From IMG/VR virus record IMGVR_UViG_3300013014_000020, positions 1 to 64,000 of that record: 64,000 nucleotides of DNA. One strand, 5' to 3'. Position 1 is the first letter of the stretch. Each line of letters opens with the position of its first letter. Under the pieces are notes generated by a model, which did not search any database, had not been told where the DNA came from, and saw nothing but the letters and a program-made list of their open reading frames with translations. Positions 9,869 through 34,029 of the stretch are shown in pieces. The position numbers and the translations under genes were made by a program. The stretch comes from a virus.

Positions 9869-11947
9869 TTATATTTTTTGTGCTGCAATTTCAGCAGGTG
9901 GGTTTACAACTTGTACATCACAACATATACAATTATTGACTGTTGGGTTTCCAACAAGATATAAACTAAATGTTCTATTTGCGCCACGACATAAACCTAG
10001 TGGTAAATTATTTATAATATCAGTATACGAACCGGTTATTGTTTGTCCACCACTTATTGTTAATTGTTTTGTATAATTCTTTATTTGTTGATTCTGCGTT
10101 ATTGGAAGAACAGAGCAATTAAGACTCAAAACACTTTGACTATTATTTATAGACGGAATACCCATATCACCTAAACCACCGTCAAATGTAACAACATTAT
10201 CTAATGTTGGGGCTGGTGTAATGCTTGCTGGATAGTAATTAAGTTGAGAATATTGTTCGATAGAAAAAGTAATTGTCTGATTTGGTGTAAGATTATTAGA
10301 TGGTTGTATCTGGAATGTATTTAAATTATCGTCAATTGTTAATGTTAAAACAAAAGTTTGTGGATTTGTTTGTGTTAATGTAACAAAATTAGGTGTTGAT
10401 TGATTACCTAAACTATCTTTTACTACAACAATGTAGTTTCCAGCGTTTAAATTAGAGAATGTTGATAATGTACTAAAAGTTGTTCCGTTGTTTATTGAAT
10501 ATTGATACGGCGGAACGCCTCCATACCCCTGTATTGTTATACTACCTTTTGTTTCACAAATTAAATCGTTTTGTGTTATGTTTGCAGTAACTTCTTTATA
10601 ACTTACACAAGTGCCTGTTGTTACGGTAATGTCTATAATATTAGGGTTACCAAGTCCTTGCCAACCAATTAAAGGTGGTGTTGCTGGATTGTTATTTATA
10701 ATACTACCAAAAATTGAGCTTCCAGATACAACCCACTGATTTGTCGTTCCGGTATTAAAATACATAAACGATATGTTATCATCTGATAACCAACTTTGAT
10801 TACCGTTAGTTATACCATAGGGTTCAAACTGAATTTGATCTAAAATTACATATTCTACTCTTGTTCCACTTCTTCTTCTAATTGTCATACACAAATCACC
10901 ATATACTGGTAGTGGTTTTATTGTTGTGGTTGTTGTGGTTGTTGGTGTTTCAGCGGTTAAAACACAAGTTGTGTTGGTGGTAAAATCACCATAGAAATCA
11001 ATAACAGTTGCATTGTAATTTCCAGCGTTAAGATTATAAATTAATGGTGTAATACTTCCGGTACTCCAAATTATTGTATAGGGTGATGTTCCACCAGTTA
11101 TTATTAATGTTGCTGCACCATCAAATGAATTATAAGTTGATGGATGTGTTACTAAACACTCAACTTCCATCGGGAATATTGTTAAGACATCACATTCATT
11201 TCTTGGTTGTATTGTAATTGGTACAGAACAAGAACATCCTTCTTCTTGGTTAATTTCAAATCCATAAGTTTCAACACAGCTTTGTACTCCAATGTATTTT
11301 ACTTCGTAACATTTTTCTGGTATTGGTATAGGGTCTGTTATAGTGATTAATAATGAATTATTTACATATCCAGAAAAAATTGGATTTGCACTAGTGAATG
11401 TTGGCACAGTTCCATCACAAGAAGATATTTCATAACAATCTGTATCGCAAGGGTGGTTTTCAACGCAGCTTGGGCAACCTAAGTCACCAAAAACTTCTGG
11501 GTTTTTAAATATTGGATAATAATTTGGTTGTAAACCAAATTTTATTGTTTTTTTATCGTAAACATAAAAACATCCATCATATGTTTCACCGCTAGGTGAT
11601 GAAGGAACATAATTATCGCAGTACACAGAATCGTCAAGATTCAAATAATCATCATTTGCAAGAATTGTTATATATTGATTATCAATACAACAAGAACTTA
11701 AAAAATAAATTGAATTTGGTGTTACAAATGGGTCACGTTCAAAATTACTTGTGTTACCGGTTATTGGGAATAAAGAACAAAAATTTATTATAGCACTTTC
11801 TTGTGGTTCAAAACTATCAGAAACTGTATTTCCAGAACAATCAATAAACGTTAATGTTTCAGTTGTTGTTCCGGTATTAACAATACTAGTGACTTTACAA
11901 GTTGTAAAACAATTTAGAACTAATGGTGGGAATTGGATTTTAGCCAT
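9869..11947 (-). CDS. adhesin with SprB-like repeats and poly-Thr linker
   Basis: A 692-residue Cys-rich protein. The N-terminal module includes IDCSGNTV, resembling the last module of the plus-strand adhesin. At about residues 262-335 there is a SprB-type repeat (FDGAATLIITGGTSPYTIIW, then NLNAGNYNATVID), followed by a Thr tract (about 334-342). A second SprB-type repeat lies at about 465-530 (GSITIQGYGGVPPYQYS, then NLNAGNYIVVVKD). SprB repeats are characteristic of the mobile gliding adhesin of Flavobacterium and of other Bacteroidota surface proteins. Here they most likely build a fibre that recognises the host surface. No signal peptide is visible, consistent with a virion protein. It is followed immediately by the 901-residue adhesin gene. 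Confidence 0.8.
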   Translation of the reverse strand: MAKIQFPPLVLNCFTTCKVTSIVNTGTTTETLTFIDCSGNTVSDSFEPQESAIINFCSLFPITGNTSNFERDPFVTPNSIYFLSSCCIDNQYITILANDDYLNLDDSVYCDNYVPSSPSGETYDGCFYVYDKKTIKFGLQPNYYPIFKNPEVFGDLGCPSCVENHPCDTDCYEISSCDGTVPTFTSANPIFSGYVNNSLLITITDPIPIPEKCYEVKYIGVQSCVETYGFEINQEEGCSCSVPITIQPRNECDVLTIFPMEVECLVTHPSTYNSFDGAATLIITGGTSPYTIIWSTGSITPLIYNLNAGNYNATVIDFYGDFTTNTTCVLTAETPTTTTTTTIKPLPVYGDLCMTIRRRSGTRVEYVILDQIQFEPYGITNGNQSWLSDDNISFMYFNTGTTNQWVVSGSSIFGSIINNNPATPPLIGWQGLGNPNIIDITVTTGTCVSYKEVTANITQNDLICETKGSITIQGYGGVPPYQYSINNGTTFSTLSTFSNLNAGNYIVVVKDSLGNQSTPNFVTLTQTNPQTFVLTLTIDDNLNTFQIQPSNNLTPNQTITFSIEQYSQLNYYPASITPAPTLDNVVTFDGGLGDMGIPSINNSQSVLSLNCSVLPITQNQQIKNYTKQLTISGGQTITGSYTDIINNLPLGLCRGANRTFSLYLVGNPTVNNCICCDVQVVNPPAEIAAQKI
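10921..10947 (-). repeat. threonine-tract coding repeat
   Basis: A run of about seven Thr codons plus a preceding Thr-Pro, linking the first SprB-like repeat to the next module of the 692-residue protein. Confidence 0.75.
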
Positions 11948-15001: not shown

Positions 15002-17200
15002 TCAATCACAAGAAACACAAGATATATTATATTCTATTACCAAATTTGAAATTATTTTTGTATCATTTAATAAATTATACGTTTCCTTTCTACAATTTTT
15101 TTCAATTTCACTACAATCATTTGTTATAGTAATTTTATTATTTGTATAATCTATTATCACTTCACCAATACCAACAAATGTTTCTAAAATGTTTTTTAAT
15201 GCAAGTCCCCAGTCTTGGTCGTTTGGAAAATCATTAAGTCCACTTGAAATATAAAATATGTCTTGTTTTGTTTCTGTACCAACTGTAACCTGGACACTAA
15301 ATTTTGCGTCATTTACAATACAATTTGTATCGCCAGAAGTTAAATCATAGAACCCCTCGTTAAACATTTGTTTGATTCCTCTTTTTCCAATTATCTCAGA
15401 ATTTTGAAAATTACCTTCACAGATTTCAAAAGTTGTATATGTTCCTAAAATTTCAGTACCTTTTAATTTTGTAGTTCTTGTAAATGAACATCCGTTAAAA
15501 TCAATTACGGTACAAGAATAAACCCCAGATGTTAGACCAGTAATAGTAAGACCAGTTTGTGGTCCAACATTTCCAACCCAATTAAATGTAAATGGTGGTG
15601 TTCCACTTGTAATTAAAACATCAATTTCACCATCATTTCCAAATACCGGATTAAATGTAACAAAATCAAAATAAACACTACTTGATGGTGTAATAAATAT
15701 TGGTTTGTTTTGAACACATCCAGTATTATCTGTAACAGATAATGTATAGTTTCCAGATGGAAGGCCATTGAAATTACCGTTAAATTGAAAAGGTATATTT
15801 GTAGGTCCAGATAATGAATAAACTATTGGGAATGTGGCGCCACTAGAAACAGAGACACTAAACCCACCATTTGAAAGTCCGCAAGTAGTTCCAGTTGTTG
15901 TTGCGGAAATTACAAATTTATCAACAGATGAAATACTTGTTGTTCCGGTATAAACACAACCTAAATTATTATCAATAAATAATGTATATGAACCATTACC
16001 TAAAGATGCAAATTGTTTGTAAACACCCCCAACTATGTTTGATATATATGTTCCATTTGCACCAGATAATGTGAATGTATAGTTTCCACTTCCAAAACCA
16101 TTATTAATATAAACATCTAAAATACCATTATTTGCGTTACAATTTGAGTTTGTTGTTATTAAATCAACTGAAGCAAATGAGTTTGGTGGTGAAAGTGTGT
16201 ACTGACCAGTTACGGTACATAATGCTGAATCTGTAACGGAGAATGAAAATTGACCAGAAGATAAACCAGTAAATGTGTAATTTGTATCAAAAGTTACTGA
16301 AACATCGTTGTTTGATCCACTATAATAATATGGTGCCGTTCCACCATCTATTACAACACTTAATTCACCATCTGGTTGTAAACAAGTTGGTTGTTGTGTT
16401 ATAACACTTATAATTTGAATTGGTTGTACCTCATCTATTTGTATATACTCAACATTTGTACATCCTTCAGAATTTGTAATTTCAACAGGGTACAGACCTT
16501 GAGTTAAACCAGTTACGGTAGTACCGGTTTGTCCATTAACATTAGCCAACCAGTTTATTGTGTAAGCACTTGTTGGGTTTGTAAGACCAGTAATGTATAT
16601 TTTTCCATTATTAATTCCTGGTACACACCCAGCAGAATTTACCTTATAATACCCAAATGTAAAATTTGTAGAAGGTTTTATTACACAGGATTCTGAAGTA
16701 CCAGAACAACCACCATAATCAAAAGCGTCAACGTAATATGAATCTGGTGAAAGGTTACTAAAAACAACATAATTTTGTAATGTCGATGTAGTACCACTAT
16801 CAATGTAATTATTTAAAATATCATATAAGTATATCTCGGTTCCATTAACATATGTTTCAGTGGTTGCAGTTATAGAACCATTATTAAGATTACAAGTTGT
16901 TCCTTCACAATTAACAGAAACTGTAACACCAGATGAAATTGTAAATGATAGGTATTGACTTGTTGGTGGTAAATCCGAGTCTTGAATTGTTAAGTTATAA
17001 TTACCAACTGGTAAGTTGTCAACATAATAAAAAGGATCAGAAGAAGTGACTGCAGAAGTTGGTAAGAGACCGCTAATACTAGGCCCTTCGTAGACAATCC
17101 AATCAGGACTACCTCCAACTATTTCAAATTGTAAAATACCAGAAGAAGTGTTGGTACAATCACCAGTAATTAATATTGATGGAAATGTTATAAAACTCAT
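15002..17200 (-). CDS. multi-SprB-repeat adhesin
   Basis: A 732-residue protein made largely of tandem beta-sandwich repeats of about 75-95 residues. Each shows the SprB-type signature: an (N/D)G-x(0-2)-(I/L)-x-(V/I) strand, a GG(T/S)xPY-like turn, and a closing G-x-Y-x(2)-(V/I)-x-D segment followed by a Cys. I count about seven such units from residue 1 to about 580. A different C-terminal domain of about 150 residues (from EICEGNFQNSEI) carries five cysteines and may attach to the virion or bind the receptor. SprB repeats are known from Flavobacterium gliding adhesins. The start overlaps the upstream baseplate gene by 4 bases, so it is expressed with the tail genes. Confidence 0.85.
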   Translation of the reverse strand: MSFITFPSILITGDCTNTSSGILQFEIVGGSPDWIVYEGPSISGLLPTSAVTSSDPFYYVDNLPVGNYNLTIQDSDLPPTSQYLSFTISSGVTVSVNCEGTTCNLNNGSITATTETYVNGTEIYLYDILNNYIDSGTTSTLQNYVVFSNLSPDSYYVDAFDYGGCSGTSESCVIKPSTNFTFGYYKVNSAGCVPGINNGKIYITGLTNPTSAYTINWLANVNGQTGTTVTGLTQGLYPVEITNSEGCTNVEYIQIDEVQPIQIISVITQQPTCLQPDGELSVVIDGGTAPYYYSGSNNDVSVTFDTNYTFTGLSSGQFSFSVTDSALCTVTGQYTLSPPNSFASVDLITTNSNCNANNGILDVYINNGFGSGNYTFTLSGANGTYISNIVGGVYKQFASLGNGSYTLFIDNNLGCVYTGTTSISSVDKFVISATTTGTTCGLSNGGFSVSVSSGATFPIVYSLSGPTNIPFQFNGNFNGLPSGNYTLSVTDNTGCVQNKPIFITPSSSVYFDFVTFNPVFGNDGEIDVLITSGTPPFTFNWVGNVGPQTGLTITGLTSGVYSCTVIDFNGCSFTRTTKLKGTEILGTYTTFEICEGNFQNSEIIGKRGIKQMFNEGFYDLTSGDTNCIVNDAKFSVQVTVGTETKQDIFYISSGLNDFPNDQDWGLALKNILETFVGIGEVIIDYTNNKITITNDCSEIEKNCRKETYNLLNDTKIISNLVIEYNISCVSCD

Positions 17201-20200
17201 TGTTCAGTACAAAGTATAGTAAAGTTTATACCTAGCTCAAGGGTAAATATGTCTTCATCGTCAAAAGGTGTGCAATTAACATTATAAATAGTTAACAACT
17301 CTTTATCCGTATTAATATCGTATGTGTACCCATCGTTTTCAAGTTCTGACAACATTGTCTCAACACCATTAACCCATTCTGTGTTAGTAGGGTAATTTTG
17401 ATACCCATATGTCTCACTAAATAAATCGCTTGATAATGTTACACCATTTAATTTTGATATTGCGTACCATTGAACATATAAAGTATCAAGTTGGCACTGA
17501 TCTAAATTAGATAGTCCTTGACTTATTAAGTAGGTATTTAAAGCTGTGGTTAATAAAACACCAAACCTACCACCGATTGGGTTGTATGTCCAAGGATATA
17601 GACCACATCTAAGGAATTGTATTGGACAATCGTATGCAAATAATTGTGTTACTAACGAACAAGGCTTACAAGGAATTGGTACAATCCTACAACCAAATTG
17701 TCTTCTCCATACAAATTTTTGTCTATGGAATATTGAATTTTCTAATCTAACTCCTGTATTCCAAATTGTTGTTGCTGGAACCATTTGTTCTACTAATCTA
17801 ATCCAGTAATCACCAATACCATTAATATAGTCCAACATTGTTTGATAATTAAAATTATCATTTTTTATTCCAGCTAATTGTTGTGATTCTAAATACTTCC
17901 AATATATTGACGATAGTGTTGGGTATCCACCAGTCTTACCGTCTGTAATAAATTGTCTATTTCTAACGTTAATCATATTTCGCCAGAAGGTTTGTGCGAA
18001 CTCAAAGAAAGTTTTTTCTTTTGGTTTTGGTATAATTTCAGTCCAGTCTATACCACCTCTTTTTGGGTAAGGTGTATTTGGGTTTGGATTACAATAAGTT
18101 GGTTGTACGTAATTTAATCCTTGATTTGGAATTGGGAAATTATATTGTCTTGACATACTCCAAACATCGTATACTAAACCAAAACTTGGGTTCAACATAA
18201 CGTCAACATTTTTAACATTCAAAACAAGACAATCATCGGAAGCGTAATAGTATGAATTAAAATTGCCGTCAGAACTTTTTCTTAAATCACTTTCATTATC
18301 ATACCAACTTTTTTTATTATCAATAACTCTTCTAAGTCTAAACCCTAAATCCATATATGGAAACTTCCTATACCTTTGTAGGTATTCTTCACCATAATTA
18401 AATGGTAACAGTTGGGTTTGGTAACTAGGATTTGAACCAGTAAAAACAGATGTTGTTAAGTCTATTTTTTCTGGCATTCTGTGTTGTGGTGTTGATTCAA
18501 ACCAACCACCACCTATTTGGAAATAATAATTTTCACTATCTACTGGTGTGCTTGGACAACCAAAACTATCTATTGGGTAATCTTCTCTAGTTAAAGAAAT
18601 GTCGATTATTTTACTTGATGTTGTAACTCCTGTATATTGCACCCCCATAATAGAATAAACATCTGTTAGGTCTAAAACTGGTATTGATTCAACATATGTT
18701 CCTGTTGCAACAATACTAAACTTAGAATCAAATTCATTTATATTAATTCTTTGATCCGCGATATAAATATATTCATTAAAGTCAACCAAAAAATCTGGTG
18801 CACCAACCAACCTTAAAAGTATTTCTATTGATTTTCTAGTTCCTTTTGATTTGAATAGGAACGCGGAATTTAATATTAAATTTCTAAAGTATTGGTAATT
18901 TATTTCATCTGGTGTTTTACCTACTGGCACGCCACTAAAATTACTTTCACTTGTACTAAAAACAGAATTTAAGAAATTCTCTTCAGTGATTGGTGACATA
19001 TTTATTTTCCAACCCAATGTTTCTGCTAAATTCTTAAGTAATTGTGATGGTATATCATTTTTAACGTTATACCTAACTGAGTTCATTGTTGATAAAGCGT
19101 CAATAAATGTTTTAGTTTCGTCAAAACTTCTTCCGTAAATTTGTAATACTTTTTCAACTTTCTTATCAACAGTGTCAAATTCTTTTATCGATGCCGTTGT
19201 TAAAAATCTAGAAATTAAATTTGTTTTATATAAATCAAGATTTGTTGCAAAACTGTTAAGTTCGGACAAATAATTATCAAATGACCTAGTTTGTAAATCT
19301 AAATTCCAAGGACCGTTTTTTGGAAATCTTAATGCTTTATAACTGAACGTAAAAGTACCATCCTCATTTTCAATTGGAACTGAAAAATAGGACGTATAAA
19401 TTGGTGTGTTATTTCTATTTAATAAGAAGTTTTCTACCTCATCAAAATCTTCGTTAAAAACTTTATTAACATAAAAGTCACTAGGTCTAATTATTATATT
19501 GTCGTAACTCACAGAATTACCAGAAAATGCGTTTCCTTCAATATAAATTGTTAAGACTTGATCTGTATTTGTTACTGGTATTATTTCATTTATTGGGTAA
19601 TGTTTGTCATTTACAATAACCACGTATTTTGAATAATTAGTTTTTAAATTCCTTAAGTTTGAAACAGATAATTCGGTTGCTTGGAAATTTTTTTCAGCAT
19701 TAGTCGTAAAATCAATACCAAATGGATTATTAATGTTTTCTAACTCTAATTCAAGTTTTGTTTCATTTTCAACAGTATTGTAAACAATATTTATTGCTGT
19801 TGTTCCTGTTAGATAGTTTATTCTTGGATTTGTAACCTCAAGGGCTGCTGGAAAAAAATTAATTATTTTTTTAATCGAGGTCGAAATCCTTAATACCAAA
19901 GAACCATATAGTGTAAAGTTTGTAACTTGAGATAAATCGTAATTTGGGTATACCTGGAAATTATTTGCGATAATCATTTTTGACTCTTCGACATTAGAAA
20001 TATTCATAGTGTCGAGTGAGATTGGGTCTGAAAACGAACCAATTTCAAAATTCCTATCTTGTTTTTCTGTAATATTAGTTGTAAAGGCAAAATTTGCTTG
20101 GGTAAGTCCACCACCATCAACTAATTGTAAACCAACTAGATTGTCAGAAAAAGATCCTTGACCGGATGCTTGTGGTGGGCATGTAAACTTATTTATTGCC

Positions 20201-20202
20201 AT
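17197..20202 (-). CDS. large baseplate/tail-periphery protein, P2 gpI-like core
   Basis: A 1001-residue virion protein. The middle (about residues 360-490) contains LLKNLAETLGW and a segment NSAFLFKSKGTRKSIEILL followed by GAPDFLV. This resembles the region of P2 gpI-type tail proteins (TIGR02242-like) in which a short helical element joins baseplate wedge to fibre. The flanks are beta-rich; the C-terminal 250 residues have several cysteines. It overlaps neighbours by 1-4 bases on both sides and lies between adhesin and wedge genes, so it may attach fibres to the baseplate. T4 gp7 is a comparable size, but I cannot show homology. Confidence 0.72.
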   Translation of the reverse strand: MAINKFTCPPQASGQGSFSDNLVGLQLVDGGGLTQANFAFTTNITEKQDRNFEIGSFSDPISLDTMNISNVEESKMIIANNFQVYPNYDLSQVTNFTLYGSLVLRISTSIKKIINFFPAALEVTNPRINYLTGTTAINIVYNTVENETKLELELENINNPFGIDFTTNAEKNFQATELSVSNLRNLKTNYSKYVVIVNDKHYPINEIIPVTNTDQVLTIYIEGNAFSGNSVSYDNIIIRPSDFYVNKVFNEDFDEVENFLLNRNNTPIYTSYFSVPIENEDGTFTFSYKALRFPKNGPWNLDLQTRSFDNYLSELNSFATNLDLYKTNLISRFLTTASIKEFDTVDKKVEKVLQIYGRSFDETKTFIDALSTMNSVRYNVKNDIPSQLLKNLAETLGWKINMSPITEENFLNSVFSTSESNFSGVPVGKTPDEINYQYFRNLILNSAFLFKSKGTRKSIEILLRLVGAPDFLVDFNEYIYIADQRININEFDSKFSIVATGTYVESIPVLDLTDVYSIMGVQYTGVTTSSKIIDISLTREDYPIDSFGCPSTPVDSENYYFQIGGGWFESTPQHRMPEKIDLTTSVFTGSNPSYQTQLLPFNYGEEYLQRYRKFPYMDLGFRLRRVIDNKKSWYDNESDLRKSSDGNFNSYYYASDDCLVLNVKNVDVMLNPSFGLVYDVWSMSRQYNFPIPNQGLNYVQPTYCNPNPNTPYPKRGGIDWTEIIPKPKEKTFFEFAQTFWRNMINVRNRQFITDGKTGGYPTLSSIYWKYLESQQLAGIKNDNFNYQTMLDYINGIGDYWIRLVEQMVPATTIWNTGVRLENSIFHRQKFVWRRQFGCRIVPIPCKPCSLVTQLFAYDCPIQFLRCGLYPWTYNPIGGRFGVLLTTALNTYLISQGLSNLDQCQLDTLYVQWYAISKLNGVTLSSDLFSETYGYQNYPTNTEWVNGVETMLSELENDGYTYDINTDKELLTIYNVNCTPFDDEDIFTLELGINFTILCTEQ

Positions 20203-22327: not shown

Positions 22328-23146
22328 TTATGGGTTTAAATATTCATACCAGTTTATCGATGAAACATCGGTTCCAACTCTAAGTCCAGTTATTGTATCA
22401 TAAACCTCATATGTTTTTGATGGGTAATTTAAACTAACTTTATAGTAAAAGTAATTTGCTTTATTAAATGTATAGTAATTACCTGATGCCGAAAATATTG
22501 ATTGTGGTCTATTCATCATATTAACAAAAATTCCTCGTCTTGCATTAAAAAATTTAGCGGACATATAAAATTCATTTATGTTTATATAAAAATTCTCACG
22601 TAACCAATAAATGAAAAATCCTTCTTTATCACCAACAAAATCTAATCCCATTTTTGGTTTTCTAATTTGTACGTTCTGTAAAAAAGTTGAAATTGTTACT
22701 GTTTCAAAATCTCCTTGTTGTACCGGTAGTATTATAGAAAAATAATTTTTTTGGTTGGCTTCGTTTGGTGTATCATAAAAATCTAATTTGAAGAATGACT
22801 TTGTAAAAGGTTTTGAAAAATAATAAACGTCTTGTTTTGTAAAATCTTCATACAAATAACTATTGTACCAGGATGTTGAGTTACTTATCGTGTCCCCAGT
22901 ATCAAAAAAATAAAATTCATAGTTTATCTTAGTTAGTATGTCTACATTATTTGTTGCAACATACTGACTATGTGAAAATCTTGAAAGTTCAAAGTCATTT
23001 GGTAATCCAATAAGTTCATCAAGTACTTCACCTTGGTAAGTATCAATAGCTTGATCTCTTTCTGAAAAATCCCATTTCATTTCAATTGGTAAATCGATTT
23101 GTTTACCAATTACTGATTTTACTATTTTATATTTATTCACACTCAT
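22328..23146 (-). CDS. unrecognised tail-periphery structural protein
   Basis: A 272-residue protein with a strikingly aromatic composition (many Phe and Tyr) and alternating beta-strand hydrophobics. It has no cysteine and no membrane segment. It overlaps the upstream 582-residue gene by 14 bases and is separated from the PKD gene by 1 base, so it belongs to the continuous baseplate/tail operon. No family is recognised. Aromatic-rich beta structure suits a baseplate wedge or fibre-base protein. Confidence 0.68.
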   Translation of the reverse strand: MSVNKYKIVKSVIGKQIDLPIEMKWDFSERDQAIDTYQGEVLDELIGLPNDFELSRFSHSQYVATNNVDILTKINYEFYFFDTGDTISNSTSWYNSYLYEDFTKQDVYYFSKPFTKSFFKLDFYDTPNEANQKNYFSIILPVQQGDFETVTISTFLQNVQIRKPKMGLDFVGDKEGFFIYWLRENFYININEFYMSAKFFNARRGIFVNMMNRPQSIFSASGNYYTFNKANYFYYKVSLNYPSKTYEVYDTITGLRVGTDVSSINWYEYLNP

Positions 23147-24881
23147 CTTCTGTTGGTTGTTGTATTTGTGTTATATCCGGTTGATTTATACCCTCATAGA
23201 ATAACCTAAAAATTGTTGTATTAAAAGGATAGTGTTTTCCGTTTGTAAATGGATAATCAACACCTAATCCAGAAGAATCTACATAACCATAAGGATATAT
23301 ATCTCTCCATCTAAAACCATTTGAACTATTTGAATAAAATGCCCAATTTGGTATTCCTGTAACAACATTCGCGTCGCCTTCTTCAACGTATTCAGAAAAA
23401 ACTCTAATTGTTACTGGATTGTGTGGGTAATAGTAATAACCAAGTTGATTAGTTAATGAAAATAAATCATACTGTGTAAACCAATTTTGGTTAAATGTAA
23501 ATTTGTGAACTTTACGTGAGACAATCCTTTCTTCTTGTGTAAAGTCATTCCACTCGCAAAAATCCCCATATAATAAATCATTTTTTTGTAAATCACTATT
23601 GTAATAAAAAAGACCAGAACCTAAATTTGATGTGTAAGAAATATTTGCTATGTTTGTATCTGATAGACCATTATTTAAATCCCAATAAATAGATGGGGTG
23701 TTATTCTGTAAAGGCATATTAAATTCATAACCTTCTCTTAATTTATTTGTCCAACCCCAATATCCTTTCCAAACACTTGTAAAGTATAACTCACTTATTG
23801 GTCTATTTTGATTATCCTTTAATGTTGCAATATTGATATCTCGATTAAATGATAACGTATAACATTGTGAACCTTCAACTATTGATGTTCTTGGGCAAGT
23901 TGGTGGTGTTAGGATTTGAAGTGGCGTTCCTCCGGACAAAACTTTTTCAAATTGCGTTTTTAAGTTAAATATATTTTCTTCAAAACCAGATTTTGTTAAA
24001 ATAGCATCGCTAACTTCTGTTAAAATTTTGTTAACTTTAACATAATATTTTGACATTGTTTCAGCTGAATTTACCGGGTCTAAAACTTTCTTTAAATTAC
24101 CAGTATTTCCTGGATTAAAATTTGTTGTTAAATAACCAATGTCAAATACGTTAAATATATATTCTCCACTACCAGAACCACCATCACCAAGGGAGTCAAC
24201 CTCAAATAAATCTGTGCCATTATACGTGAATGGTAACTGGACGTATTGACCAGAACTTAATCCGTGTTTCATTGGACATCTAAATGTAATTAAATTATTA
24301 ACTCTTGATGTGATTAAATATGGTATTCCGTCTTGGGCTTGAAAAGTCCAAGTTGCAATTGTTTGTGGGTCATGAACATATAATGTTTTTGTGTAGTCGT
24401 TTGAATATGGATATGACATATAATGCGTCCAATTGTATGTTGATGCGCTTTTGTTTATAAAAATTTGATGGTTATTAACACCAGAAGTGTAACCAACTTG
24501 GTTATTATCAGTTCTTATAAAATCAAATTCAGAATATTGTGGAAAACCATACCATTCAATAGGTGTAAACCCACAAGCAATTTTTTCAGTTGTTTGAGTA
24601 ATATTTGTATATGCTAGGTAATCAACATATGGTTGATAAGTGGTACTTCCAGAATATTTGTTTTTTATTATTAGATTATATTTTGTACTTGGTCTAAAAA
24701 TATTAGACGATTCTCTTTCATTAACAAAAGTTTCTTCGAGATTAACATCTATATATCTTTCATACTCAACTTGTTCGTGTGATGTTTGTTCAAGAACAAT
24801 TTTTTGTTGACCATCAAGTACTGGTGCACCCTGATATCTTTTGTTACTTTGTACTATTAAAGTTGGATTATCTATTGGCAT
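23133..24881 (-). CDS. unrecognised tail-periphery structural protein
   Basis: A 582-residue beta-rich protein, with many Tyr, Trp and Asn residues and a Gly/Ser-rich loop (GDGGSGSGEY, about residues 229-238). The N-terminal 50 residues contain a possible attachment helix (KIVLEQTSHEQVEYERYIDVN). No signal peptide or membrane segment is seen. It overlaps the 1873-residue gene by 1 base and the next gene by 14 bases. It is a probable baseplate or fibre-connector component; I do not recognise the family. Confidence 0.68.
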   Translation of the reverse strand: MPIDNPTLIVQSNKRYQGAPVLDGQQKIVLEQTSHEQVEYERYIDVNLEETFVNERESSNIFRPSTKYNLIIKNKYSGSTTYQPYVDYLAYTNITQTTEKIACGFTPIEWYGFPQYSEFDFIRTDNNQVGYTSGVNNHQIFINKSASTYNWTHYMSYPYSNDYTKTLYVHDPQTIATWTFQAQDGIPYLITSRVNNLITFRCPMKHGLSSGQYVQLPFTYNGTDLFEVDSLGDGGSGSGEYIFNVFDIGYLTTNFNPGNTGNLKKVLDPVNSAETMSKYYVKVNKILTEVSDAILTKSGFEENIFNLKTQFEKVLSGGTPLQILTPPTCPRTSIVEGSQCYTLSFNRDINIATLKDNQNRPISELYFTSVWKGYWGWTNKLREGYEFNMPLQNNTPSIYWDLNNGLSDTNIANISYTSNLGSGLFYYNSDLQKNDLLYGDFCEWNDFTQEERIVSRKVHKFTFNQNWFTQYDLFSLTNQLGYYYYPHNPVTIRVFSEYVEEGDANVVTGIPNWAFYSNSSNGFRWRDIYPYGYVDSSGLGVDYPFTNGKHYPFNTTIFRLFYEGINQPDITQIQQPTEDECE

Positions 24882-27800
24882 TATCCTTCGGTGTTAATGT
24901 AAACTTTTATAAACTTATCAATAGCCGTATTTCCATTTGAAAGTCCGAAATAGAAATGGTATGGTGCTCCAACTAAAACACTTTGGTTTGGTAATCCGTT
25001 TACAACACCGTTAGGTAGTATTTCTGGATTGTCAGTAGAATCAAAGTTTGTTATGAATCCAAAATTTTCAAGGTTATTTGATTTTCTAAAATATGGATCT
25101 GTGTTAAAATCTAAATCTTGATAGTTTTTACTAAAAAATCCACCGTTTGATAAAACTTGAGTGTCCCAGTTGTTGTCTTCGGTACCAAAAATACTATTTG
25201 TTGGTCCTGTAATTCTCCACAAATAATGTGGTACATTCTGGTCAGATGGATAGCCATAATAACTAAATACACCACCACACTTATAACTTAAAGCTTCAAT
25301 ACCCGGTGATAATTTTCTTCTATAACTATAGTCTTCGGTAGATGATGAAAAGAAAATACCAAATACAGGTTTTGCGTCTGGTGTTGCATCTGAACCAATG
25401 TATAAGAAATTATTAGGGTAATTTTCTTCAATATATGGACTAACTCTCCATTCAGAATTTATCGATAACGCTTGTGCGATATCACCATCAATTCTTTCAG
25501 CTTTTCTTGAGCTATTAAAAAATTGTACAATTCCTTTACCTTCTGATGAACCACCACTTGGGCTTCCAATTGGTATGATTTGATCCCAAACTGACGCGTT
25601 AAGTAGTCTTGAAATAAAACTCATTTGTAGTAAATCTGAATTATCTTGGTAGGATGTTGACTTTATTTGGTCAACAAGATATCCATTAAAATCTGGGTCA
25701 TTACATATTTGACTAATAAACTTATCTCTAGGTCCCATATCCATTACTGTTGTTGGGAATTGGATTCGTTTTGTGTTATACCCTAAACCAGGAAAATCAT
25801 TTATTAAGTCTGATGGCCAAGACTGACTTGGTGTTGGTGATTCAACACCAATAAAACTATTGCCATTCCAGGGTGAAGACCTATAATAAAAACCATTAGT
25901 TAATTCGTTATAAACTATAGTGTCTTGACAGTACTTATATTGTGGTTCGTCTGGTTGTGCTAAATTAAATTTGGTTGTTTTATTAAATGTAAACATATAT
26001 AAAACGCCATTAATCCAGTTGTTTTGGAATGTTTGAGAAAACACACCTCTACAGGCTGCGAAATTTAATGTAAATCTTGTTTTCCATTCAAGAAGTAATC
26101 TGCCATCGGCTGGAAACTGAAGTAAAAAAGTTTTATTTAATAAACAATAACAACCTCTAACCATTCTATCATCTGGTATATCGCAATTAGGATTTATGCT
26201 AATATTTGTACCACTACCTTGGTAACATTCAAGTGGTCTCATATTTTCACAACTTAATGTTGATGTTAGACCTTGTACCAAGTCTGACTCATCATAAACC
26301 GTTTGACCGGCTGAAGGATCTGGAGCAAAAGATATTGTTGGTGAAGATTGTCCTTGTGCTCCAAAATATTGGAAATTACTATTTTGATGTAACGCATAAC
26401 TTGTTTCTCCGTAATTTTCTTCAGTTCTTGTTGATGTTGGTAATCTATCGCTTCTCATAACAAGATATTGTGGTTGTCCAGGTGTTTGATCAACTGTAAA
26501 CACTATCGGTGTTGGGTTGTACTTGTAATAAGCCGGAGAATAAACAGCGTATTTAGTAAGTCCTACAGAATATTGGTCATTATTATTACCAAAAACTTGA
26601 GTCATAGTTTGAGGATTATATAGTTGTCCTGCTGGTGAATTTGATGCGGTAAATGAACCTCCAGCAAAATAATAATTTAAAGTAGATTGTGATAAAGTTA
26701 CGTGATATGGTGTATTTGTTGCGTCAAATATTGTTGGTAAAACTGATGCTCTTCCGTTTGAATTACTTAGTATTATATCTTGGTTTGGACTTAACAAAGA
26801 TATTGTTTGGAAAGTCAGTAGTGGTGATGGTTTGTATCCACTTGCAATTGATTCATCTGGACATAAATAATAAAAAGGTAATGTTGATGTGAAACCAGTA
26901 AATTCGTTACAAGTGACACCACTTACTGTGTATGTTTCACCAATTCTAAAATTATATGGTTCAAAAAATAAATCTGGCGCTGAATCGTTTTGTGAAATAA
27001 TATGTGTTGTTGGTTTTACACCTGTTGCTTGTATTGGTATATTCAAATAATATTCACCCTCAACAATTGGTCCTTGACCAAAAGACTTACCAAAAATTCT
27101 AGATAAATCGTATTTATTTTTTTGTTTTGGTGAATGTGGGTCAACACCTCTAGTAATGATTAAAACTTCTAAATTACCAAATTGGGAAATATCTTCAACA
27201 ATGTTGTTAAATGTTGAATACTGGTAATTATTTGCTGGTGGTGGTCCTTGTGTTAAATTACAATCACCATCTTGATAAACAAAAACAGCATCGTGTTTTA
27301 GATATTTGTAAGGAAAATAATTTACGTTTGTAAAACTTGCAAGACCATTAAATTGATTGTATGTATATCCGGAAATTAATTGGAAGTATTCTAAATCTAT
27401 ATTGTACTGTAAATAATTTTCACTTTCACCAGAATAGAATAGTTCATATTGTACTGATTGGGAGTTGGTTGGTGTTGTTGCATAACTTAAATTTGTAATA
27501 CTAATACCTGTTGTTGTTAAACCGGTAACGGCATTATTCCCAAATTGATTTTCACCAAAATTATTACCATCGTGAAAAGTTGCACCACTTAAATTTGGGT
27601 TACATAATGAAATTACCCCGTCTTGGAATGTAAATAATTTACCACTACCGATTTGACTTGCGGTTCCAGCTTTTGCTAATATTACTAATACTTGGTCATT
27701 ATGTTTTGTATTTTGATTATTTGTACTTGTCGTGTTAAAAGTAGCTTCAATTTGATTCACACCATCAAAATATTTTTGTCTTAAATTAAATTCGTTTAAT

Positions 27801-30502
27801 TTTTGTGAATATGTTTCTGTATATGGTTTTGCAAAAAATCTCCAGGCTTGACCACTATATTCTTGTGCTGATAATAAGAAATGATTTGGTGCGTGTAGGA
27901 ATGTTTTATCTGGAACACCATAATAATCATTTCCAACATCAAGTGATTCACTACCACTTAATAGTCTTTGATACCCAAGAGTTGCGGCAATAATAACATT
28001 TGTGTCTATCCATTGTTCTCCGATTGAATAACTTAAGGATTTATGTCCACAGTAAGGTATATTCCAAACTAACGATGAATTACAATTAAATGGTGGGACT
28101 GTACAACTAAGTCCATTATAATAATAAAACCCACCAGTTGGTTCGTTTTGTGGGCTATTTTGACTAACATTTGGATGTGATAGTGTTGGGTATGAAGATG
28201 GTAGATTAATTGGGGCGATAAAAGAATTATCCGTTATTGCTGTTGTTGGTATACCTTGTGGTAAATTAGCACCATTAACTTGTGATTGGGCGTCTGATAT
28301 TCCTTGATTAACACTTGATTCTGTTATATTATTTGCCTCTGAAAAATCAGCATTACCACATTCACAATCACACGCAGTACAATCAGGGTATGATAACATT
28401 GGTAACCCAAGTCTTGGGAAGTTATCGATATTTATTAAATATTTCAATGTAAAAGCGGTAAAAGCAATACCTGCTCCAACCATAAATAACACTTTTGCAC
28501 CTTGTTTTATAATTTGTAAAATTGTTGCAACAGAAATTACTGGGCCACCTAAGTTTGCATCACCAATTGATGCTATGTAGTAATATAAATCAATACCGGC
28601 ATCAACACCAAGATATGTTATGTAAAAGCCTAAAAAGATCAACAAGTATTTAAGTACTGGCCAAATAAATGCAATTAAATGTGCAACAAATAATAAAGGA
28701 ATAAAAACAAGAGGTGCAAGTATTGATAAAAATAAATTAAAAACAAAAAATAAAAAATCAAAATTTCTTACAACATCATTTACTGGAAATGTATTTGTCT
28801 CCGATTTACAAGTTCTATTATCAATTTCTTTTATACCTAAATGTTTTCCTCTCCCAAGACCTTTTTTATAACGGTCAAGGAACATTGCTGTTGTATATAC
28901 TTTATTGTAATGAAATTCATAAAAACTATCTTCACAATTTATTGCAGCTTGAGGGTCAGTATAATCGTCCCAATCTAAACTAAATGAATATGATTTTAAT
29001 AAATCAAAATAGTCTTGATTAAAGAACTTATAAACAATGTCTGATGGTTGGTTTGGGTCTTCTGGAACCAAAGTTACATTTATAAAATCATTTGGTGTTT
29101 GTGTTGAAATTACTTGGGGATCACCATAATATGGTGTCCAGGGTCCTCCAACACTTGGTCCTACCTCAACAGAATAACTTGATACGTTTACAATTTCTTT
29201 AAAAACTAAACCACTATTTCCAAGTGGACCAAATATAACACTTGTACCTTGTCCAGGTTGTATTGTCCCAGTAAGTAGTTGTACTGTACCAGTTTTAAGT
29301 GGATCATTACTATATGTTGATGTTGTCCATCCGTGTTCTTTTATATTTGGAACAAAGAAATTTGCCCTTTGAAATTCATTTTGTAATCCACCTTCGTTTT
29401 CCCACTTAAATTTAAATCTATATCTTGCCTTTGTTGGAATACCAATTTTTGGGTCGTTTGAAATTGCTTGTTCACCAAATTCATTCGTGTAAACGTATTC
29501 TAGGTTCATTGGTAGATTAACCAAATACGAACCATCTGCATCTATTACTTTTCCATCATTTGGTAGTTTAAACTCTTCAAGTATTGGTAGACCTAAAGCA
29601 TCAACATTAATTGTTTGTCTAATAGATAGTATTTGTCCTGGACCCGCAATTAACTCACAAAGATTTCCAGTATTGTTTTTTGGTTTACAACTTACTCTTA
29701 ACGCATCGTCATCAGTTGTTGATATTATAGAACCAAGAAATACTGATTTTGGTTCAATACTTATATTCGCTTCACTTAAATCAAAATCAACCCTTGTAAT
29801 TCCTAATTGACAAACATCTGTATCACCCCATAATGGTGAGATATCAATAATTTTATTTAATGTTTTTATCTGTGGAAGTTCATTTAGGTTTGTCGATGAC
29901 TTAAAAGTATTTCCATCAACTTGATTTTCTGTTGCAATTCCATTCTGAATTAAATCTTGTGGTGTTAATGAAAAACAACCAATATCCGACAAATCAACAT
30001 CCAAGAACACAGTCTGGGTTCCTAAAGGAATCCCAAAAATCATATAATCACCACTTTCATTTGTTTTGGTTGTAAACTTATAGTATTTGTCATATACTTC
30101 AATATAGGATTGATCTAATAAAACTTCTTCTTTTGTTGGAAAAGTACCTGTTGCTGCGTGACCTACATATGATGGTAGTTTAGGTAACAGATTATATCTA
30201 TAACCATCTTCACTTACATCAGATAAACTTTGATAAGGATATAATTCAGTTATTACTGGGTTATTTTCATCTTCTGGTTGTAACGGTATGAAAATAGAAA
30301 CCCTTGCGTTTGGTAATCCAAAACCACCATTAACAAATACACGACCAACAATAACGCCATAGTCAGAACACTGTCTACTGTAAACCTCACTCTGTAATAT
30401 TTTAAGAGAAAGTATGTTGATTTGGTCAAAATCTTGATCCAGATTAATTTTAATTGATTTGTCAACCCCAACCTGGGTTCTTATTCTATGTGACTTAGGC
30501 AT
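24881..30502 (-). CDS. giant virion protein with central membrane segments
   Basis: A 1873-residue protein. Near the N-terminus are two carboxypeptidase-regulatory-like beta modules (GLPNARVSIFIP, about residues 54-65, and TNESGDYMIFGIPLG, about 146-160). At about residues 573-690 there are four or five long hydrophobic segments predicted to span membranes (for example FLFFVFNLFLSILAPLVFI and YLLIFLGFYITYLGV). They are followed by a Cys cluster, CTACDCECG, at about 707. The remaining 1100 residues are beta-rich and Asn/Tyr-rich like other tail proteins here. Membrane spans in the middle of a baseplate-operon protein are unusual. They could insert into the host envelope at infection or be buried until then; this is inference. 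Confidence 0.72.
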   Translation of the reverse strand: MPKSHRIRTQVGVDKSIKINLDQDFDQINILSLKILQSEVYSRQCSDYGVIVGRVFVNGGFGLPNARVSIFIPLQPEDENNPVITELYPYQSLSDVSEDGYRYNLLPKLPSYVGHAATGTFPTKEEVLLDQSYIEVYDKYYKFTTKTNESGDYMIFGIPLGTQTVFLDVDLSDIGCFSLTPQDLIQNGIATENQVDGNTFKSSTNLNELPQIKTLNKIIDISPLWGDTDVCQLGITRVDFDLSEANISIEPKSVFLGSIISTTDDDALRVSCKPKNNTGNLCELIAGPGQILSIRQTINVDALGLPILEEFKLPNDGKVIDADGSYLVNLPMNLEYVYTNEFGEQAISNDPKIGIPTKARYRFKFKWENEGGLQNEFQRANFFVPNIKEHGWTTSTYSNDPLKTGTVQLLTGTIQPGQGTSVIFGPLGNSGLVFKEIVNVSSYSVEVGPSVGGPWTPYYGDPQVISTQTPNDFINVTLVPEDPNQPSDIVYKFFNQDYFDLLKSYSFSLDWDDYTDPQAAINCEDSFYEFHYNKVYTTAMFLDRYKKGLGRGKHLGIKEIDNRTCKSETNTFPVNDVVRNFDFLFFVFNLFLSILAPLVFIPLLFVAHLIAFIWPVLKYLLIFLGFYITYLGVDAGIDLYYYIASIGDANLGGPVISVATILQIIKQGAKVLFMVGAGIAFTAFTLKYLINIDNFPRLGLPMLSYPDCTACDCECGNADFSEANNITESSVNQGISDAQSQVNGANLPQGIPTTAITDNSFIAPINLPSSYPTLSHPNVSQNSPQNEPTGGFYYYNGLSCTVPPFNCNSSLVWNIPYCGHKSLSYSIGEQWIDTNVIIAATLGYQRLLSGSESLDVGNDYYGVPDKTFLHAPNHFLLSAQEYSGQAWRFFAKPYTETYSQKLNEFNLRQKYFDGVNQIEATFNTTSTNNQNTKHNDQVLVILAKAGTASQIGSGKLFTFQDGVISLCNPNLSGATFHDGNNFGENQFGNNAVTGLTTTGISITNLSYATTPTNSQSVQYELFYSGESENYLQYNIDLEYFQLISGYTYNQFNGLASFTNVNYFPYKYLKHDAVFVYQDGDCNLTQGPPPANNYQYSTFNNIVEDISQFGNLEVLIITRGVDPHSPKQKNKYDLSRIFGKSFGQGPIVEGEYYLNIPIQATGVKPTTHIISQNDSAPDLFFEPYNFRIGETYTVSGVTCNEFTGFTSTLPFYYLCPDESIASGYKPSPLLTFQTISLLSPNQDIILSNSNGRASVLPTIFDATNTPYHVTLSQSTLNYYFAGGSFTASNSPAGQLYNPQTMTQVFGNNNDQYSVGLTKYAVYSPAYYKYNPTPIVFTVDQTPGQPQYLVMRSDRLPTSTRTEENYGETSYALHQNSNFQYFGAQGQSSPTISFAPDPSAGQTVYDESDLVQGLTSTLSCENMRPLECYQGSGTNISINPNCDIPDDRMVRGCYCLLNKTFLLQFPADGRLLLEWKTRFTLNFAACRGVFSQTFQNNWINGVLYMFTFNKTTKFNLAQPDEPQYKYCQDTIVYNELTNGFYYRSSPWNGNSFIGVESPTPSQSWPSDLINDFPGLGYNTKRIQFPTTVMDMGPRDKFISQICNDPDFNGYLVDQIKSTSYQDNSDLLQMSFISRLLNASVWDQIIPIGSPSGGSSEGKGIVQFFNSSRKAERIDGDIAQALSINSEWRVSPYIEENYPNNFLYIGSDATPDAKPVFGIFFSSSTEDYSYRRKLSPGIEALSYKCGGVFSYYGYPSDQNVPHYLWRITGPTNSIFGTEDNNWDTQVLSNGGFFSKNYQDLDFNTDPYFRKSNNLENFGFITNFDSTDNPEILPNGVVNGLPNQSVLVGAPYHFYFGLSNGNTAIDKFIKVYINTEG

Positions 30503-30554: not shown

Positions 30555-30668
30555 TTAATTATAAAAAAGTAAAAGAAACAAAAATTCTTCTTCAGATGTT
30601 AGTTTACCATTAAGTGTTTTAAGATAATCAATTAATCTATTTATCGGTCTTCTTTTTCTTTTGACCAT
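30555..30668 (-). CDS. 37-residue basic small protein
   Basis: ATG at 30668, TAA at 30555. The product starts MVKRKRRPINRLIDYLK and ends in a hydrophobic FLFLLLFYN. It overlaps the last 28 bases of the 79-residue gene in another frame. The basic amphipathic N-terminus and leucine-rich C-terminus look like a structured peptide, not chance translation. Evidence is composition and position only. Confidence 0.5.
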   Translation of the reverse strand: MVKRKRRPINRLIDYLKTLNGKLTSEEEFLFLLLFYN

Positions 30669-30880
30669 CTTTTTGAAACGTCGTTTCTTAATTTCATACC
30701 ACTTTCTAATTCGTCAGCAATTTGTCTTAACATAAAAACTTTAGATTCTTGTGATTCATATGAATCCCGTAAAAGGTCTTTTATATTGTTATAAAGTAGA
30801 TTTTTATCTTTGTCTTCTTTTAATGTTTTTCTAACAATTCTTAACAAATCTGATTCACTAAGTCTTATAACCTTTTTCAT
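30641..30880 (-). CDS. small protein with MKK-x-IRL-x-ESDL N-terminus
   Basis: A 79-residue, highly charged helical protein. Its N-terminus (MKKVIRLSESDLLRIVRKTL) is a basic amphipathic helix ending at an LKE site. The starts of the 33262-34029 and 60042-60875 proteins are similar. In T4, short N-terminal sequences ending in (L/I)-x-E target internal proteins to the prohead and are cut by the gp21 protease, so a capsid-targeting role is possible. It follows the gp6-like gene by 26 bases; a TATTTAT element is in that gap. Confidence 0.7.
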   Translation of the reverse strand: MKKVIRLSESDLLRIVRKTLKEDKDKNLLYNNIKDLLRDSYESQESKVFMLRQIADELESGMKLRNDVSKRWSKEKEDR

Positions 30881-30906: not shown

Positions 30907-32745
30907 TTAAGAAAAGTTAATTCCTTTAAAGTTTAAAACTCTAACATTAATATCTTTATTTGGAAATCTAATTTGATACATTTGAGTTGGTTCTGCAAAT
31001 ATTGTATCAGCAATTAATTCTATTTGTCTTGTTGATGGGTCAATATATCTTTGTGATGTTTGTGATGACGAGTACTGACCACCAACTTTATTAAAGAATT
31101 GTACGTCAGATATACTTATAACACCATCTAAATTTTGAATCCGTTTTCTAATTTCAGAAATATATATATTTTCACCCATTTGTCTATTAGCTGGTGAAAA
31201 ATATTGGGTTATTATATCTATAATTTGTGTAACAATTGTTCCTTGATTTTGACTTGCATCTAAAACAACATCAACATTTGTACTTAAATCAATAACATTA
31301 GCACTTTCAACAGAAATATAATCGTTAATCATTCTGTAATTTGATAGGTAATTAGCAATATTCTGTTTTAGTGTATTGGATGTTATTTCTGTCAGTTTTC
31401 CATCACTATCATAAGATAATAATTTAATCTTAATTTTATTATTTTCTTCTGTGATTGTAACTTTAGCTGGTGCACCAAATTGTGAAGGCATTGTTCTAAT
31501 AATTGATTCATAATCATTAATTGTAACGGCTCTATTTTGTGCTGAAAAGTTAAACGATACCATTTGTCTTACTTCTTCAGTCGATGGATTGTTTGCACCA
31601 CCAATTGCCGCTGTAACGTTATTACATCTTAAAGAATTGATAACACTTCTATTAACGTTATCTGAAGGGCCATTAACCGCAAAATTAACAGTTCCAATTT
31701 GACTAATCACATTTATACCTAAATTTGTATTACTACCCCCTCCAACCCTATATTGTATAAACATTGTTGTGTTAGGTTTTAAAGCACTACCTAATGTTAG
31801 ATTATTTGTGTATTTTGATAAATCAAATGAAAGACCGTCTCTTGCAAATTCTCTTAATTGATCCTCAGCTGAAGTATTACCACCACCAAATGTCATTTTA
31901 AAGAATCCTTCTGGTGTATATTCGGTTATAAATTTATCTGTTGTTGTAACATATTTTCCAACCTTAATGCCTGGGCTATCAGATGTTTTTGTTGGGTCTT
32001 CGATAAAAACTCTATCCTCCATTAAAGCTTGAACTTCATACCACCTATTATTTTGTCCAAGAAATTCTTGAGTTGGTGGTATTGTTACATATTGTGTTCC
32101 TTCTTTTATTAGTACACTTGTTATACCTAATACATTTTTTTCCGGTAAAAATAATTCATAAAAAGGTCTAACGTCATTAGGTGTTACAACTTTTTTAAAT
32201 ACCTTTGTTACACCATTAACAACAACTTCACGTTTAATAATTGTGTAGTTTATTATTTTTCCGTTTGAATCAAAATTAGGTATTTTTAATCGATTTGGTG
32301 AGCCCTCGGCATTTACAGCGGATGAAAAATCAATATCATAAACAGTTTCAAATGGTTGTCCGGCGCCAAGAACTTGCGCTCCTCTTCTTAATACACCACA
32401 GTAACTTAAATTTTCTTTATCACCAAAGGCTGGTACTGTGATTGAAAAATCAACAAGTGCGACGGAAGGTCTTTGTCCCGGAATTTTTAAACCGTAAGTC
32501 CTTGCGATATTAAAAACTGAAGATCTTTGTTGTGCATACTGAAGGACAGTCTCTTGGATACTTCTATCAATGTGAAATTGTAGGTTGTCTGTAACGGCGG
32601 CGTTTAAGTCTAAAAACACCGAAAAAATACCGGCGTCGTTAAAGTTTTGTACAAGGTCTGGATAATACTGTCTTGTAAAATTAATAAGTTCGGTTCTTAT
32701 TCCTTGAAAGTCCCTTGTTGTGTACGATATTTTCTTTTCTGCCAT
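30907..32745 (-). CDS. baseplate wedge protein, T4 gp6/baseplate J-like
   Basis: A 612-residue protein with the features of T4 gp6 / baseplate J family wedge subunits. It opens with YTTRDFQGIRTELINF, continues with DLVQNFNDAG and a helix including DNLQFHIDR, and contains the later GGGNTSAEDQLREFARDG and ITINDYESIIR-type segments of the J domain. Gp6 dimers make the continuous ring around the baseplate hub and bind gp25 and gp53. Here the gp25-like gene lies 4 bases upstream, the same pairing as in many contractile systems. Length matches T4 gp6 (660 residues). Confidence 0.92.
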   Translation of the reverse strand: MAEKKISYTTRDFQGIRTELINFTRQYYPDLVQNFNDAGIFSVFLDLNAAVTDNLQFHIDRSIQETVLQYAQQRSSVFNIARTYGLKIPGQRPSVALVDFSITVPAFGDKENLSYCGVLRRGAQVLGAGQPFETVYDIDFSSAVNAEGSPNRLKIPNFDSNGKIINYTIIKREVVVNGVTKVFKKVVTPNDVRPFYELFLPEKNVLGITSVLIKEGTQYVTIPPTQEFLGQNNRWYEVQALMEDRVFIEDPTKTSDSPGIKVGKYVTTTDKFITEYTPEGFFKMTFGGGNTSAEDQLREFARDGLSFDLSKYTNNLTLGSALKPNTTMFIQYRVGGGSNTNLGINVISQIGTVNFAVNGPSDNVNRSVINSLRCNNVTAAIGGANNPSTEEVRQMVSFNFSAQNRAVTINDYESIIRTMPSQFGAPAKVTITEENNKIKIKLLSYDSDGKLTEITSNTLKQNIANYLSNYRMINDYISVESANVIDLSTNVDVVLDASQNQGTIVTQIIDIITQYFSPANRQMGENIYISEIRKRIQNLDGVISISDVQFFNKVGGQYSSSQTSQRYIDPSTRQIELIADTIFAEPTQMYQIRFPNKDINVRVLNFKGINFS

Positions 32746-32749
32746 TTTT

Positions 32750-33211
32750 TTAAATATTAAGTATTACAAAATCACTTGATTCAAAGGCACTATTTGTAAC
32801 CTTATAATCAATTTTTACTCTTGCTGTATATTCTTTTTGTGATAACCCAGGTACACGAAACTCTCTTTGACCTTCTGAATTAATATATGTTGCTCCTGGG
32901 TCTTCTAAATCAGCAGTAGCTTCTTTTATTTCAACATTTGTTACTAAAACACCGGGCATATATCTTCCAACACTATCTCTAATTTCAGATTCAACATCAG
33001 AAAATGTTGGTCCATCTAATGGTTCAAAAATAAATTCATATAATCTTGTTCCAAAATCTGGTAAAAAATACCTAGTTCCTTTCCTTGTTAAAAGTAAGTG
33101 TATTAAATTACTTCTAATTTCATCATCAGCAGTTGGTGTAACACCAAGATACTTACCAAGTGATGATTGTTCAAAGGGAAATGCTAAACCATATGTTGTA
33201 CCGTATGCCAT
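32750..33211 (-). CDS. baseplate wedge protein, T4 gp25-like
   Basis: A 153-residue protein of the gp25/GPW family: TRKGTRYFLPDFGTRLYEFIFEP contains the conserved RxG-x(3,4)-P-x-F-G-x3 core with the EP(L) turn, followed by SEIRDSVGRYMPGV. Gp25 is the most conserved wedge subunit and joins gp6 to gp53 at the baseplate inner ring. It is slightly longer than T4 gp25 (132 residues). It heads the gp25-gp6 pair and is preceded by a TATTTAT element. Confidence 0.93.
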   Translation of the reverse strand: MAYGTTYGLAFPFEQSSLGKYLGVTPTADDEIRSNLIHLLLTRKGTRYFLPDFGTRLYEFIFEPLDGPTFSDVESEIRDSVGRYMPGVLVTNVEIKEATADLEDPGATYINSEGQREFRVPGLSQKEYTARVKIDYKVTNSAFESSDFVILNI

Positions 33212-33261: not shown

Positions 33262-34029
33262 TTATAATTGTCTGGCAACTTGATCAATCGCACACCAATG
33301 TGGTTTGTCACACCCTGTTTTTTTTGTACTTGTTGGATTGCTTACAATCCCCAATCCTGCCGCCGCATATGAACCAACCCATACATTACTTTCTGGTAAA
33401 CCTAGTTTTACTGCGGAAGTAACACTTTGTTTTGCTGAAGAATGTGGTTCAATAACATATAAATTATTTAGACTTTTATTAAGTAATTTTAACTTTCTTG
33501 CAAATTTTTCAGAATATGCACAACCAGCACTAAAAAGTAAAACATAACTATTTGGTTCTGACTCTAAAGCTCTTAATGCGTTTTCATTATCTGTATGTGA
33601 ATATCCTTCAACATCAGCATTAATTTTTAAATTGTCACTAACTCTTTTTGTTTGTTTTTTTACTGGTTCGTCACTACTTCTATTATGTAATCCAGAAACA
33701 AATATTACGTTTTTTATTTTACCGTCTTTTTTTTCTTCAGTATCTTTTTCTTCTTTATCTTTAGTGATTTTTACGTCTTTTTTAATATCTTCAATTTTAT
33801 TTTTAATTTCTTTATTTGTTGGTACTTCATCAATTTTAATATCGTCTTTCTTGTCGAAATCAATCCCGGTCAAACCTTTAAACACCTCTTTAGTTTTGTC
33901 TTTAGCTGTTTTATATGAAGACTTTACAAAATCTAAAGCATCATCATACCAAGCTTCGTTTAACACATCATTTTCTGTATATTTTTCAATAATTCTTTTT
34001 AATTGACTTTCTGTGATTTTTATTTTCAT
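33262..34029 (-). CDS. hypothetical protein with targeting-like N-terminus
   Basis: A 255-residue protein in three parts. Residues 1-30 are a basic amphipathic helix followed by VLNEAWYD, which resembles a T4-type prohead protease site (L-x-E). Residues about 45-105 form a very Lys/Asp/Glu-rich, probably disordered stretch. From residue 108 a compact alpha/beta domain follows, including VIFVSGLHNRSSD, LLFSAGCAYS and YVIEPHSS. The FSAGC elbow and late histidine recall alpha/beta hydrolase-like folds, but the evidence is too thin to name an enzyme. It lies directly upstream of gp25, preceded by a TATTTAT element. Confidence 0.72.
   Translation of the reverse strand: MKIKITESQLKRIIEKYTENDVLNEAWYDDALDFVKSSYKTAKDKTKEVFKGLTGIDFDKKDDIKIDEVPTNKEIKNKIEDIKKDVKITKDKEEKDTEEKKDGKIKNVIFVSGLHNRSSDEPVKKQTKRVSDNLKINADVEGYSHTDNENALRALESEPNSYVLLFSAGCAYSEKFARKLKLLNKSLNNLYVIEPHSSAKQSVTSAVKLGLPESNVWVGSYAAAGLGIVSNPTSTKKTGCDKPHWCAIDQVARQL

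Follow-up and report, generated by a model that had tools for sequence, protein, structure and literature searches.

Genes of the tail region

The DNA analysed here, 64,000 nucleotides at positions 1 to 64,000 of IMG/VR record IMGVR_UViG_3300013014_000020 and referred to below as the window, encodes, as judged from its recognisable genes, a T4-like contractile tail. A sheath (60945-63818; PHROG 23), a tail tube (59412-59900; PHROG 4542) and a T4_baseplate/hub protein (58542-59312; PHROG 150) can be assigned, and a likely tape measure of 676 aa (56355-58385) adjoins the tube and hub. Two wedge genes are found on the minus strand, encoding gp25 (32750-33211; PF04965, E 1.8e-11; PHROG 261) and the gp6/Baseplate_J wedge protein (30907-32745; PHROG 219, E 9.8e-25; PF04865, E 4.1e-07). 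Directly upstream of the gene considered here lies gp6; that gene, an ATG-start ORF at 24881-30502 on the minus strand (stop codon included), encodes a protein of 1873 aa, P0001. The first-pass annotation had placed the ORF at these positions, to which the strand is now added, and its description of a 1873-residue product in a baseplate operon agrees with the ORF and with the adjoining gp25 and gp6 genes.

The arrangement is widely kept among relatives. Of 239 loci, 232 have gp6 upstream of the family gene, less than 1 kb away in 220, and 186 encode directly downstream a 582-aa protein of uncharacterized function (23133-24881, minus strand, in the window). The order gp25-gp6-MAIN-582-272-390-302-1001, in which MAIN is the family gene, is kept in 25 of the 28 loci long enough for a gene-order test. 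This place next to gp6, together with the conserved cores described below, suggests a wedge-associated baseplate protein; P0001 is probably such a protein, its presence in the virion being taken from synteny only. A quite different reading, that P0001 is a non-virion membrane protein of host takeover or assembly which lies in the tail operon by chance, would fit with the finding that no isolate in INPHARED carries a member of the family, but we consider it very improbable given the fixed place between gp6 and five co-conserved genes, and given a size, a strand-rich composition and a strong core conservation that suit a structural tail protein.

We took as a tape measure a long helical or coiled protein whose gene lies between those of the tail tube and of the hub or baseplate. 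P0001 was ruled out for this function by its strand-rich model and its position after gp6, and a separate candidate of 676 aa exists next to the tube and hub. Searches of the 115-kb record with PF07068 and PF07230 (T4-type capsid and portal) gave no match, the controls being equally silent, and membership of this phage in the Far-T4 group (PMC4360716, PMC7198788) is a lead.

Several other genes of these phages deserve mention in their own right. The 1001-aa protein (17197-20202, minus strand) is akin to proteins of Flavobacterium phage immuto_161 and a Microcystis phage (hhalign 92-96%), and its KGTRKSIEILLRLVG stretch resembles tail protein I by eye, with no match in Pfam. A 1737-aa tail-region protein (51081-56294, minus strand) has a weak OmpA-like domain at residues 941-998 (E 9.4e-4, below the Pfam cut-off), which is possibly peptidoglycan-binding. 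SprB repeats occur in surface adhesins of Bacteroidota, and two proteins encoded downstream (9869-11947 and 15002-17200, minus strand) match the Pfam SprB repeats (PF13573), one match being above the cut-off, thus hinting at a Bacteroidota host. Beside the wedge genes, two unrelated-looking ORFs (30641-30880 and 33262-34029, minus strand) start with a common motif (MKKVIRLSESDLLRIV, MKIKITESQLKRII), a pattern with 19 occurrences in L001-L080 and none in shuffled sequence; our guess is that it is an N-terminal targeting or capsid-packaging tag. Finally, a helicase-like ORF in a relative (L083:1849-4386) is 845 aa long, its counterpart in the window having 462 aa, and by eye looks to contain an intein, the segment ending ...EHLYITDDFIVTHNT.

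Extent and architecture of the family

The family has at least 564 relatives in IMG/VR, ranging from close ones through forms of 2000-3000 residues, and some of them lie on contigs of 200-412 kb. P0001 shares 47-95% identity with its full-length relatives. No model in Pfam, PHROGs or NCBIfam names the family, and BFVD holds one relative, the uncharacterized A0A8S5LA66 of the metagenomic Myoviridae sp. ctPuP5 (44% identity over the aligned part). Sequence comparison establishes, in our view, a large and previously undescribed family in the baseplate operon, nearly all of whose members carry a removable hydrophobic module.

Two core segments frame the protein; the coordinates of these and all other features within P0001 are likewise on the minus strand. 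The N-terminal core (residues 1-400; 29303-30502) is the most conserved part, with about 0.7 identity in 40-residue windows. It bears a faint resemblance to carboxypeptidase-regulatory/transthyretin-like domains, seen in a weak match to PF13620 in L083 (E 0.0047, below cut-off) and in a Foldseek match to PA1324 (E 1.2e-3) obtained from a low-confidence model. The C-terminal core (residues 1440-1873; 24884-26185) contains the motif NWINGVLY at 1495-1502. About 900 residues separate the N-terminal core from this NGxLY-type motif in P0001, and are made up of a hydrophobic block, a Cys cluster and a large inserted domain (residues 720-1440; 26183-28345) that is strand-rich in the AlphaFold model, has an identity of 0.15-0.58 and is missing from compact relatives. 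In L082 (745 aa), L112 (1177 aa) and L087 (811 aa) the NGxLY-type motif follows the N-terminal core after a short bridge; L082 and L112, like L084 (728 aa), lack the block, and L087 has one hydrophobic helix only. In another relative, L015, the family gene is in two pieces (L015:4694-6631 and L015:6635-10120) broken in frame near residue 545, immediately ahead of the hydrophobic block; this is either an assembly error or a real break.

The sequence CTACDCECG, reported in the first-pass annotation as following the hydrophobic stretches, is indeed present at residues 708-716, and the Cys cluster C708-C711-C713-C715 (28358-28381) is invariant in 36 aligned relatives. Across the family, 93 of 191 full-length members have C..C.C after the block; they come mainly from aquatic samples, and the usual form is [LIV]P-x3-YP[DE]CxxC[DE]C. 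The pattern occurs anywhere in only 3 of 522 control ORFs, which are other ORFs, 500 aa or longer, taken from contigs of family members. The cluster is thus, by its distribution, not universal and belongs mainly to aquatic clades. We set aside the idea that it forms part of a membrane function, the block being nearly universal and the motif being found in those 93 members. A second invariant Cys set (C1418, C1426, C1440, C1451 and C1453; 26144-26251), identified in the alignment of relatives, lies at the C-terminal boundary of the inserted domain.

The hydrophobic block

Hydropathy was measured by the Kyte-Doolittle scale in a 19-residue window (KD19). Of the 'four or five' hydrophobic stretches claimed initially at about residues 573-690, the block itself stands, at residues 577-690 (28433-28774) from KD19 and the alignment of relatives, but the count comes to three clear segments, perhaps four: peaks lie at 583-601 (2.58), 604-622 (2.06) and 672-690 (1.73), with a weak fourth at 643-661 (1.24), and outside these P0001 never exceeds 1.12. 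The values, up to 2.58 in P0001 and up to 3.2 in relatives, are those of membrane-spanning segments. A single peak in P0001 is not decisive, because 500 shuffles of the protein gave maximum KD19 values averaging 1.83 and reaching 2.92. The block is more than chance because it recurs at one position across family members when these are compared with controls. Among 139 dereplicated full-length members, 97% reach a KD19 of at least 1.6 and 59% one of at least 2.4, the figures for the 522 control ORFs being 3% and 0%; the first-pass view that such blocks are uncommon therefore holds for the large proteins that these phages encode outside the family. The peak is at a shared position in 101 of 104 tree representatives, following an N-x-[FM]-P-x-N-like motif and preceding [ND]W[IVL]NGxLY where this is recognisable. 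Within the window, the likely tape measure reaches a maximum KD19 of 0.96 and has no such segment, and no other ORF checked reaches 1.6 barring 43786-50766 and the sheath, with marginal peaks of 1.63 and 1.62, respectively, and a small ORF at 322-732.

Over the tree, the block measures anything from 0 (in some natural members) to about 150 residues, while the conserved core segments on either side persist; as read from the alignments, it is thus a removable module of variable length, nearly universal in the family, and not a part that the core fold requires. Hydrophobicity is kept even though the block varies more in sequence than either the N- or the C-terminal core. The charged fraction at residues 583-636 is 0.02-0.08 in 28 relatives, compared with 0.17 elsewhere, and the helical moment is low in four of five segments tested. 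In a test of column conservation the block again varied more than the cores, but inside it hydrophobic (1.59 bits) and polar (1.55 bits) positions do not differ; the test favours lipid exposure, short of proof. Taken together, the low charge, low moment, variability, and loss or lengthening appear to suit lipid contact over packing in a rigid core.

We rejected the possibility that the segments are alike in all clades, since among gut and rumen members a lone, charge-containing helix is common, which seems less like a spanning segment. Analysis of flank charges by the positive-inside rule gave no orientation signal, in part because the automatic block limits took in the flanks.

Structure prediction

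Structure prediction had been proposed with the first-pass annotation as a check on its membrane reading. AlphaFold, run with 36 relatives, gave two models (mean pLDDT 50.6 and 54.3); two long helices were predicted in the block (pLDDT mostly 61-89 per 10-residue block) and the remainder was poor. The first helix spans residues 583-647 (28562-28756) and includes both the 583-601 and 604-622 segments; the second, at 658-689 (28436-28531), overlaps the segment at 672-690. Since the models are otherwise poor, we claim no fold for P0001 as a whole, and for the same reason a Foldseek search of both models against the PDB yielded nothing usable. In a PDB profile search the block matched the KimA transporter once (E 3.8), which we dismissed as chance.

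Discussion

What was first proposed for this protein, a baseplate protein that engages a membrane, is borne out in part, as regards the baseplate operon and a conserved, membrane-like helical block; membrane insertion, at infection or at assembly, is possible. That the block is removable and varies in length, and that the Cys cluster is not family-wide, is added here. For a membrane role speak the two long predicted helices, adjacency to gp6 (232/239 loci) and the presence of the block in 97% of the 139 members; against it stand the precedent of T4 gp7, the charged helices of gut and rumen members, the poor models and the lack of a flank-charge signal.

T4 gp7, the wedge initiator, is instructive in that it too is large and encoded directly after gp6, and has a membrane-type helix (residues 886-904, KD 2.07), its C-terminus being described in GenBank as a 'predicted integral membrane domain'; yet it has been solved full-length as a chain of baseplate structures, and so illustrates that wedge proteins can carry hydrophobic helices within a soluble assembly. 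By this example, the helices of P0001 might never touch lipid and might form a buried helical bundle packed on gp6 or neighbouring wedges in the baseplate. The invariant residues H608, W614, P615 and K618 of the block suggest specific contacts of this kind, and for the one-helix gut and rumen members with internal charges packing is at least an equal fit. The gp7 helix is, however, a single one near the C-terminus, not a central block, and the family has no detectable relation to gp7 (hhalign probability 0.1%); homology was looked for also with T4 gp5-gp11 and gp53, and with wedge-region proteins of Flavobacterium phage immuto and Microcystis phage Mel-JY01, and none was found. Moreover, the core persists whether the block is absent or extends to about 150 residues, and sequence variation is greater in the block than in the cores, where hydrophobic columns are more strongly conserved. 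We think a buried bundle, the main rival reading, unlikely, while giving it serious weight.

The 745-aa L082, which has both core segments and no block, leads us to expect that the cores lie on one side of any membrane and that the block forms hairpins. Such a topology would also serve an assembly anchor, in which the block tethers the baseplate, as it grows, to the inner membrane of the host on the cytoplasmic side, and lysis frees the finished particle. A parallel is offered by the type VI secretion system of Bacteroidota, in which TssN, with five spans and a soluble domain, docks the baseplate on the membrane and is encoded among baseplate genes (PMC10781749). TssN links the baseplate of a contractile machine to a membrane, but it is a separate cellular membrane protein outside the wedge, and is likened to P0001 by description, not by sequence. 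As a virion with integral membrane segments must shield or extract them, and no positive-inside signal was seen, we judge an assembly anchor distinctly improbable.

The explanation that we favour, and hold at somewhat less than even confidence, is that P0001 is a wedge-associated protein of a T4-like contractile tail whose block enters the host membrane when the baseplate opens. The core segments (about 1-576 and 1440-1873) would probably join the wedge beside gp6, and between them would lie the removable helical hairpin block, joined in P0001 to the Cys cluster and the inserted domain of about 700 residues. Shielded inside the intact virion, the block of each wedge would be released on baseplate opening at the cell surface and would insert into a membrane of the host, with the outer membrane as the likeliest target; there it may anchor the opened baseplate and perhaps loosen the bilayer around the tube. 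The data show the ORF, the block with its conservation and place, the gene order and the gain and loss of the module; virion presence, copy number, membrane insertion, its timing and the target membrane are matters that we infer. A comparable precedent for a block that is shielded and then inserts is found in the tape measure pb2 of T5 (PMC10038345), although pb2 serves a non-contractile tail and P0001 is not a tape measure. In the phi29 tail knob, hydrophobic helical loops (the L-loop of gp9) are stored in the virion, exposed at infection and penetrate the membrane (PMC6542822); this is a knob protein of a short-tailed phage, and the likeness is again one of description rather than sequence.

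The profile libraries searched hold no model for this family, which provides a conserved marker gene of uncultured phages. To our knowledge, little is known of how a contractile baseplate, once contracted, holds on to a Gram-negative membrane and perhaps opens it. That the block is kept at one position in almost all relatives suggests an undescribed form of membrane engagement by a contractile tail. It is plausible, at somewhat short of even confidence, that the family provides aquatic T4-like phages and gut and rumen jumbo-phage contigs with an exchangeable module for membrane insertion, carried by the wedge and not by the tape measure or hub; the part that enters the host membrane would then be the baseplate itself. 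The several hundred wedge-operon proteins, with blocks of 0 to about 150 residues and including members with none, form a natural series in which a possible role of the baseplate at the membrane can be examined directly.
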